This document shows, piece after piece, positions 1,477-2,446 of a stretch of 64,000 nucleotides of DNA (positions are counted from its first letter, which is position 1; each line of letters starts with the position of its first letter). A model generated the notes under the pieces. It saw only the letters and a list, made by a program, of their open reading frames with translations. It was not told the DNA's origin and searched no databases. The stretch spans positions 372,001 through 436,000 of the forward strand of contig NZ_CP121113.1 of NCBI RefSeq assembly GCF_029581395.1. The letters are read 5' to 3'. The stretch comes from Roseinatronobacter sp. S2 (GTDB taxonomy: Bacteria; Pseudomonadota; Alphaproteobacteria; Rhodobacterales; Rhodobacteraceae). The position numbers and the translations under genes are program-made.

Positions 1477-2066
1477 CCCTCGATCACCCCGCGCAAGGAC
1501 AGATAATTCAACAATTCCAACAAAGGCAGGCCGAGTATGGTGAAATAATCGCCCTGCACCTGCGCAAACAGGCGCACGCCCTCCTCCTCCAGCTTATAGG
1601 CGCCGACAGACTCGGATATGCCGGGCCAGTTGCGCGCGATATAGCTGTCCAGAAAGCTGTCTGAAAACGGCCGCATCGTCAACCGCGCGACACCGACATG
1701 TCGCCAGACAGGCTCGCCGCCGCTATACAACACCGCCGCCGACAAAAGCTGGTGCGTTTGTCCGCGCAGTTGCAGCAATTGATCGCGGGCAGCTTGTTCG
1801 GTTTCGGGTTTTTCCAGGCACGCCCCCTTGAATGACAGAATCTGGTCGCAGCCAAGCACATACGACTCCGGTCTGCGTCCCGCCACTTTGCGCGCCTTGC
1901 TTTCGGCCAGCGTATCGGCCACGTCGCGCGGGCTTGCCCCTTCCATCAGCAGCGCATCGCGGATTGCGGCTTCATCCACGCGCGCGGGCTGCACATCAAC
2001 ATCAAGGCCCGCGTTGCGCAGCATTTGCGCACGAATACCGGAACCGGAAGCCAGAATAAACGACAT
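1473..2066 (-). CDS. maf: Maf-family nucleotide pyrophosphatase
   Basis: Maf proteins hydrolyse non-canonical or modified nucleoside triphosphates to monophosphates. The start chosen at 2066 gives MSFILASGSGIRAQML, matching the family N terminus (ASxSxxR), and a 197-residue protein; a longer in-frame ATG at 2102 adds 12 residues with no family match. GCDQIL, about one third along, corresponds to the conserved G(A/C)DQ motif. It is the first gene of the leftward operon. Its ATG abuts a perfect DnaA-box 9-mer at the edge of the proposed origin region. Whether it is the YhdE (dTTP/UTP) or YceF (m7GTP) subtype is not decided. Confidence 0.93.
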   Translation of the reverse strand: MSFILASGSGIRAQMLRNAGLDVDVQPARVDEAAIRDALLMEGASPRDVADTLAESKARKVAGRRPESYVLGCDQILSFKGACLEKPETEQAARDQLLQLRGQTHQLLSAAVLYSGGEPVWRHVGVARLTMRPFSDSFLDSYIARNWPGISESVGAYKLEEEGVRLFAQVQGDYFTILGLPLLELLNYLSLRGVIEG

Positions 2067-2446
2067 GTGGATAACCTTGTGTGAATCCTGCCATGAAACC
2101 AATGAACAAAGGTTGGGTAACCCCGTTATCGGGGCTGTGCTGTCATCTTACCCACCACCATGCAAGGGTCCATGCCGAAAAATCCACATGTGGATGCAGC
2201 AATTCCCGGCATGTGGATAAATATACAAGCGATCTTCGGAATTTCAGATATTCTGTTTTTGTTCTAAATTAATATACTGATATTAAATATAAAAACTTAT
2301 ATCAACCACCTCTACGCAGCTTTCCAGCCTGTGTGTATAAGTGTGGATAACAATCTTATCCCCATATCAACAGGCCCTACTAACAACATCATTTCCTTTC
2401 TATATTTCTTTAATTATTTAGAAGACAGCTATCGAAAGGCCAAAAA
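2066..2446. other. Candidate chromosomal replication origin (oriC)
   Basis: Gene-free, AT-rich stretch between divergent maf and hemJ. Perfect DnaA 9-mers (TTATCCACA, here read as TGTGGATAA) lie at 2066-2074, 2212-2220 and 2342-2350. One-mismatch copies lie at 2332-2340 and 2356-2364 (opposite orientation). A 14-bp palindrome ATCCACATGTGGAT at 2182-2195 contains two more half-matching boxes. Between about 2220 and 2330, and again at 2370-2430, the DNA is strongly A+T rich in an otherwise GC-rich window, as expected for an unwinding element. Transcription and G/C strand bias reverse here, and parA, parB and four parS sites lie within 10 kb to the right. No IHF or CtrA site was identified. The functional assignment is inference. 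Confidence 0.75.

Follow-up and report, generated by a model that had tools for sequence, protein, structure and literature searches.

The window, i.e. the whole stretch of 64,000 nucleotides analysed here, corresponds to C1:372001-436000 of Roseinatronobacter sp. S2, C1 being the 3,479,920-base main chromosome; the 6 contigs of the genome add up to 4,445,845 bases. Close to the left end of the window a gene-free gap was found between maf and hemJ, at 374.07-374.45 kb on the 3.48-Mb chromosome. Its GC content is 39%, compared with 59% for the window, and a value as low was obtained in 6 of 5000 random 380-bp stretches. As the preliminary description had stated, the direction of the genes flips at the gap: on the left, coaE-aroE-maf run leftward on the minus strand and on the right, hemJ-rho-mnmE-mnmG-rsmG-parA-parB run rightward on the plus strand (names backed by NCBIfam). 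The gap and the genes relevant for its interpretation are:

1473-2066, minus strand: maf (Maf-like protein), left flank; best NCBIfam matches below the curated cut-offs
2067-2446, no strand: maf-hemJ gap, putative oriC, 380 bp
2447-2887, plus strand: hemJ, right flank; just below the NCBIfam cut-off, over the Pfam cut-off
3021-4331, plus strand: rho; NCBIfam support
8109-8924, plus strand: parA, ParA-type ATPase; below the curated cut-offs
8921-9811, plus strand: parB; TIGR00180, over its cut-off

A search for structured RNAs in positions 1900-3100 gave no Rfam match, and no relatives of the gap were found in the plasmid collection. The best DnaA match of the genome is located at C1:689764 (L002), about 315 kb from the putative origin and not beside it.

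The gap contains a dense group of DnaA boxes. The three perfect boxes, the two boxes with one mismatch and the palindrome of two half-matching boxes that had been described before were all recovered at their places, together with one weaker box:

2066-2074, minus strand: perfect DnaA box; overlaps the maf start codon by one base, conserved there in the 25-gap alignment
2182-2195: palindrome ATCCACATGTGGAT, two half-matching DnaA boxes; right half not retained in most relatives
2212-2220, minus strand: perfect DnaA box; a weaker box at this place in most clade gaps
2332-2340, minus strand: one-mismatch DnaA box TTATACACA
2342-2350, minus strand: perfect DnaA box, 10 bp from the preceding box
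2356-2364, plus strand: one-mismatch box TTATCCCCA; strongly conserved in the clade
2364-2372, plus strand: two-mismatch box ATATCAACA, sharing one base with TTATCCCCA; strongly conserved in the clade

Since the first of these boxes shares one base with the maf start codon, the gap proper was taken as 2067-2446. The sequence TTATNCACA occurs 5 times in the window with 1.1 occurrences expected, and 5 were reached in 1 of 100 shuffles. The perfect box is not enriched genome-wide (22 sites vs 16 for the reversed pattern), and a scan of the whole genome found three perfect boxes within 300 bases at the gap only. With up to one mismatch allowed, 5 boxes lie within 400 bp at the gap, compared with a maximum of 2 elsewhere in the 1.89 Mb of chromosome examined.

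For the comparison with relatives, loci were retrieved via hemJ, which matched 335 stretches, and the best 80 of these were retained; by title they are assigned to Rhodobacteraceae or Paracoccaceae, apart from a few metagenome bins labelled otherwise. Among these best 80 of 335 loci, the order maf-gap-hemJ was measured in 75; three break off ahead of maf and two, from Paracoccus, are without a maf match, while rho was found in 79. The two Paracoccus loci (L040, L046) have kept hemJ-rho-parAB, with no maf match beside the origin. The gap analyses were performed with 74 loci plus the window, i.e. 75 gaps, after L032 had been dropped due to a match not beginning at the start codon. A clade set of 25 gaps (373-381 bp) was formed from the window and the 24 loci of highest hemJ identity, with titles naming Roseinatronobacter, Roseibaca, Natronohydrobacter and bins.

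The alignment of the 25 clade gaps revealed conserved islands amid otherwise poorly alignable sequence. In the left part these are the boxes at the maf start, the block TGCTGNCATGTT-N12-GCAAG and the weak box at 2212; in the middle, NTTC-N7-GNTC is followed by an IHF-like site; and the right core comprises, apart from a C-rich spacer and a T-rich stretch, boxes on both strands ending in TTATCCCCATATCCACAG or near it. The more distant gaps are more varied: the right core was detected within 5 mismatches in 30 of the 75 gaps, several distant gaps hold few or no near-perfect boxes, and in those of L075 and L079 no DnaA box with at most one mismatch was found. Besides the boxes, the following elements of the S2 gap are considered below:

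2138-2166: conserved block TGCTGNCATGTT-N12-GCAAG, about 71 nt from the maf start
2250-2264, plus strand: LexA-like element, ATTC-N7-GTTC
2263-2302: candidate unwinding site 1, least stable 40-mer of the gap
2270-2282, plus strand: IHF-like site, one mismatch to YAANNNNTTGATW
2377-2382, minus strand: CTACTA, two DnaA-trio-like repeats on the complementary strand
2387-2426: candidate unwinding site 2, second unstable stretch, T-rich, beginning CATCATT

The block TGCTGNCATGTT-N12-GCAAG is present at its fixed place in 23 of the 25 clade gaps with at most 3 mismatches, and in the other gaps matches were no better than in shuffles. No match of the block to a known site was recognised, and a role as maf promoter was discarded on inspection, as its spacing misfits a -35/-10 pair.

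By computed stability, the gap holds a candidate unwinding stretch of low stability at 2263-2302; among 2000 random 380-bp stretches, 2 contained a 40-mer as unstable as this. Of the 25 clade gaps, 16 have their least stable place in the centre and 9 have it beside hemJ. For the other 50 gaps the corresponding numbers are 21 and 29. The right-hand stretch lies beside the trio-like repeats. According to the available part of PMC8287927, the basal unwinding system (BUS) has been described in B. subtilis and others, and the published minimum of DnaA-trios is three. The BUS rule (at least 3 NAN trios in a row, no more than 16 bp from a DnaA box) gave 0 matches in the window and was therefore rejected as a description of this site; across the gaps it matched 33 of 75, compared with 33.2 in tail shuffles. 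In the stretch that follows the last boxes, ATCATY occurs in 51 of the 75 gaps (16 of the 25 clade gaps) vs 8.2 in shuffles (maximum 17), and the other slices gave 0-4. That DnaA opens the central stretch rather than the right-hand one falls a little short of an even chance in our estimate: its low stability, rare in random stretches, and the central place of the least stable stretch in most clade gaps speak for it, but in the majority of the 50 other gaps the least stable place adjoins hemJ, where the ATCATY repeats are conserved. We lean towards opening at the right-hand stretch, 2387-2426, because it directly follows the most conserved boxes.

The IHF-like site was evaluated by means of YAANNNNTTGATW, which we take to be the IHF consensus. 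In the slice 165-230 nt before hemJ, matches with at most one mismatch are present in 13 of the 25 clade gaps (mean of 3.4 and maximum of 9 in local shuffles) and in 27 of the 50 other gaps (shuffles: mean 5.6, maximum 12), whereas in the opposite orientation the counts of 2/25 and 11/50 are within shuffle range (maxima 8 and 13). CtrA control at the S2 gap was considered and rejected, with no site of the form TTAA-N7-TTAA found in the gap with up to one mismatch. Perfect CtrA sites occur in 11 of the 75 gaps (shuffle mean 1.0, maximum 4), and with one mismatch allowed the count of 32 of 75 is within shuffle range (maximum 35). Seven Roseobacter/Roseovarius loci (L036, L043, L047, L052, L055, L066, L074) carry a perfect CtrA-type TTAA-N7-TTAA near the maf start, 389-401 nt before hemJ.

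Next to the IHF-like site, all 25 clade gaps have a one-mismatch match to GTTC-N7-GTTC at 190-198 nt before hemJ, and the match is perfect in 0 of 25. On either strand and at any place, one-mismatch sites are present in 48 of the 75 gaps and in 376 of 1500 block shuffles; they also occur in 333 of 1500 random 380-bp stretches, so that a single instance means nothing and what counts is the fixed place. The joint pattern TTC-N5-TTGNTC-N5-TA-N6-TGA is found once in the S2 genome, at oriC (reversed control 0), and once, at whatever position in the genome, in each of 12 other genus genomes, and it is absent from 17 of 30. A hemJ promoter in this stretch, with TTGNTC as -35, was rejected upon inspection of the columns, which showed no conserved -10 at 16-18 bp, and the promoter consensus scan gave no plus-strand site in 1900-2600.

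Taken as a whole, 2250-2282 may form a composite site for a putative genus-specific origin-binding regulator, a reading that we regard as possible, if on the doubtful side. It is favoured by the joint pattern being confined to the gap in S2, by the lack of a CtrA site there within one mismatch, and by the alignment, which, made before the motif search, had already lined up these columns between neighbours of poor conservation. Against it stand the genus genomes without the joint pattern and the fact that the columns were anchored by a search pattern which itself contains the six fixed bases (TTC, G, TC). A further proposal, that the CtrA control of Caulobacter-type origins has been replaced in the genus by a regulator binding NTTC-N7-GNTC beside the IHF site, possibly LexA via a weak operator, which would tie DNA damage to the start of replication, seems improbable. 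Also proposed was that NTTC-N7-GNTC at 2250-2264 acts as a weak LexA operator coupling the SOS response to initiation. Its constant place one mismatch away from GTTC-N7-GTTC is consistent with such an operator, as are the LexA boxes of the same form that precede recA and lexA in the S2 genome; yet the full motif is never reached in the clade gaps, whereas 25 of the 27 genus genomes usable for recA have a perfect box there, and the frequency of one-mismatch sites in random stretches also makes it very unlikely. The element is not called an SOS box. Elsewhere on the chromosome, perfect LexA-type boxes were observed just upstream of a photolyase-like gene (C1:3077970, L184) and near the start of a translesion-polymerase-like frame, ImuB-like by eye (C1:649225, L181).

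In order to place the gap on the replicon, strand asymmetry was calculated from the C1 stretches and the window, which together cover 1.89 of 3.48 Mb, with the missing bins (46% of the chromosome) interpolated. The chromosome-wide cumulative GC-skew curve in 5-kb bins has its maximum at 2.15 Mb and its minimum in the 370-375 kb bin; the position of this minimum, by which the preliminary description had proposed to judge the origin, thus falls in the bin that holds the gap. A two-step circular fit placed the origin-side break between the bin centres 372.5 and 377.5 kb, with a range of 352-395 kb over 60 bootstraps, and the other break between 2132.5 and 2162.5 kb (bootstrap 2080-2252 kb). Within the unbroken stretch of 335-490 kb, the local GC-skew minimum lies 21 bp beyond the gap, at window position 2467. 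The lowest point of the cumulative T-A curve is at window position 9770, about 7 kb from the gap, which counts against an origin at the gap. The statement that strand composition flips exactly at this place accordingly stands for GC skew and fails for the T-A curve.

Perfect parS sites were located at the following positions:

2949-2962: parS
5633-5646: parS
7529-7542: parS
11330-11343: parS

These four sites are the only ones in the genome, even with one mismatch allowed (reversed control 0), and their proposed presence with parAB within 9 kb of the gap was confirmed. For dif, a pattern that we take to be of the E. coli type was searched with up to 3 mismatches. The 14 matches obtained compare with 11 in the reversed control, so most of them are due to chance. 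There are only two one-mismatch matches, one at C1:2118437-2118458 and one on contig C3. By this pattern, the site on C1 lies opposite the gap, at a distance of 50.1% of the chromosome and 4.2 kb off the exact antipode; the match of equal quality on C3 weighs against the dif argument. The latter, at G000:C3:165306-165327, would fit a chromid that is resolved like a chromosome.

The GC-skew minimum, the intergenic cluster of DnaA boxes, the parS cluster, the opposite dif-like site and the anatomy conserved in relatives agree with the origin first proposed between maf and hemJ, and judged from the sequence the gap 2067-2446 is very probably the DnaA-dependent origin of the 3.48-Mb main chromosome. 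Against this stand, besides the T-A curve and the dif-like match on C3, the interpolated part of the skew curve, the distant gaps poor in near-perfect boxes and the failure of the BUS rule. DnaA boxes have roles in gene regulation, too, and the bootstraps leave a 43-kb range for the skew break, but that the gap is a mere promoter or DnaA-regulated region between divergent operons, with the origin a few kb off, is scarcely believable given a local skew minimum just 21 bp beyond it and a box cluster matched nowhere else in the 1.89 Mb read, including all of 335-490 kb. It is well supported that this origin lies at the place usual for its relatives, the position of the gap being ordinary for the family.

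With regard to hemE, the surroundings of the origin differ from those of most sampled alphaproteobacteria. The preliminary description had noted hemE as missing; it is indeed absent beside the gap, but present in the genome: it neighbours hemC on the opposite strand at C1:546244, at a distance of 171 kb from hemJ. Nor is its absence special, since it is common to close relatives: hemE was found in 0 of 80 hemJ loci (best 80 of 335; flanks of at most 10 kb a side). For a survey of the class, 77 genomes were screened for hemE, which 65 of them have. Of these, 57 were taken to the hemJ search (G005, G013, G034, G035, G037, G044, G055 and G072 were left out) and 55 had hemJ. In 49 of these 55 sampled alphaproteobacterial genomes hemE is just upstream of hemJ on the same strand. 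The six exceptions are the S2 genome (G000) and G015, both of its family, plus G003, G008, G025 and G066; in three of the six, hemE and hemJ are on separate contigs. According to the available text of PMC1914354, hemE and COG1806 flank the Caulobacter and Rickettsia origins, likely the ancestral state. In an ancestor of S2, hemE probably adjoined the origin, as in most sampled alphaproteobacteria, and would later have come to lie beside hemC; it probably left the origin early in the Rhodobacteraceae. The hemE-origin linkage of alphaproteobacteria is thus broken here and in the fetched close relatives, while hemJ, rho, mnmE, mnmG, rsmG and parAB stayed beside the origin.

Put together, these elements suggest the following course of initiation. 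DnaA would fill two groups of boxes, the right-hand one (2332-2372) and the left one at the maf start, and IHF may bend the DNA between them, near 2270. One of the two unstable stretches would then open, either 2263-2302 or 2387-2426 beside the trio-like repeats. ParB bound to the four parS sites may subsequently separate the copied origins.

For a complete Roseinatronobacter chromosome, the present analysis narrows the origin down to 380 bp, and it names two short conserved elements that are open to direct testing, TGCTGNCATGTT-N12-GCAAG and NTTC-N7-GNTC. As far as the parts of these papers available indicate, origins were called in bulk by software in 101 Rhodobacteraceae strains (PMC6699656) and in 179 alphaproteobacteria (PMC8116508), and those of D. 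shibae and R. capsulatus were called through DoriC (PMC6473078). Among the matches listed, judged by title and abstract and with subscription papers and DoriC set aside, no account of the internal anatomy of Rhodobacteraceae origins was recognised.

Three known systems offer themselves for comparison, each as far as the available text of its source describes it. The S2 gap resembles Cori of Caulobacter crescentus (PMC1914354) in its DnaA boxes, an AT-rich part and a length of about 400 bp on an alphaproteobacterial chromosome, and its one IHF-like site may be a further common feature; in contrast to Cori, which is flanked by hemE and COG1806 and has five CtrA sites, it lies between maf and hemJ with hemE 171 kb away, and it shows no CtrA site within one mismatch. 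With the BUS of B. subtilis and others (PMC8287927) it shares the succession of boxes, a short GC-rich spacer and CTACTA (two 3'-GAT-5' trios on the other strand), but the run in S2 breaks after two trios, compared with the minimum of three. The software-called origins (PMC6699656, PMC8116508) were recognised by the same features as the S2 gap, namely skew minimum, DnaA boxes and parAB nearby; whereas those, in the available text, come without an internal map, the flanks and the fine anatomy of the S2 origin are derived from the present analysis, which thereby offers such a map for the family.
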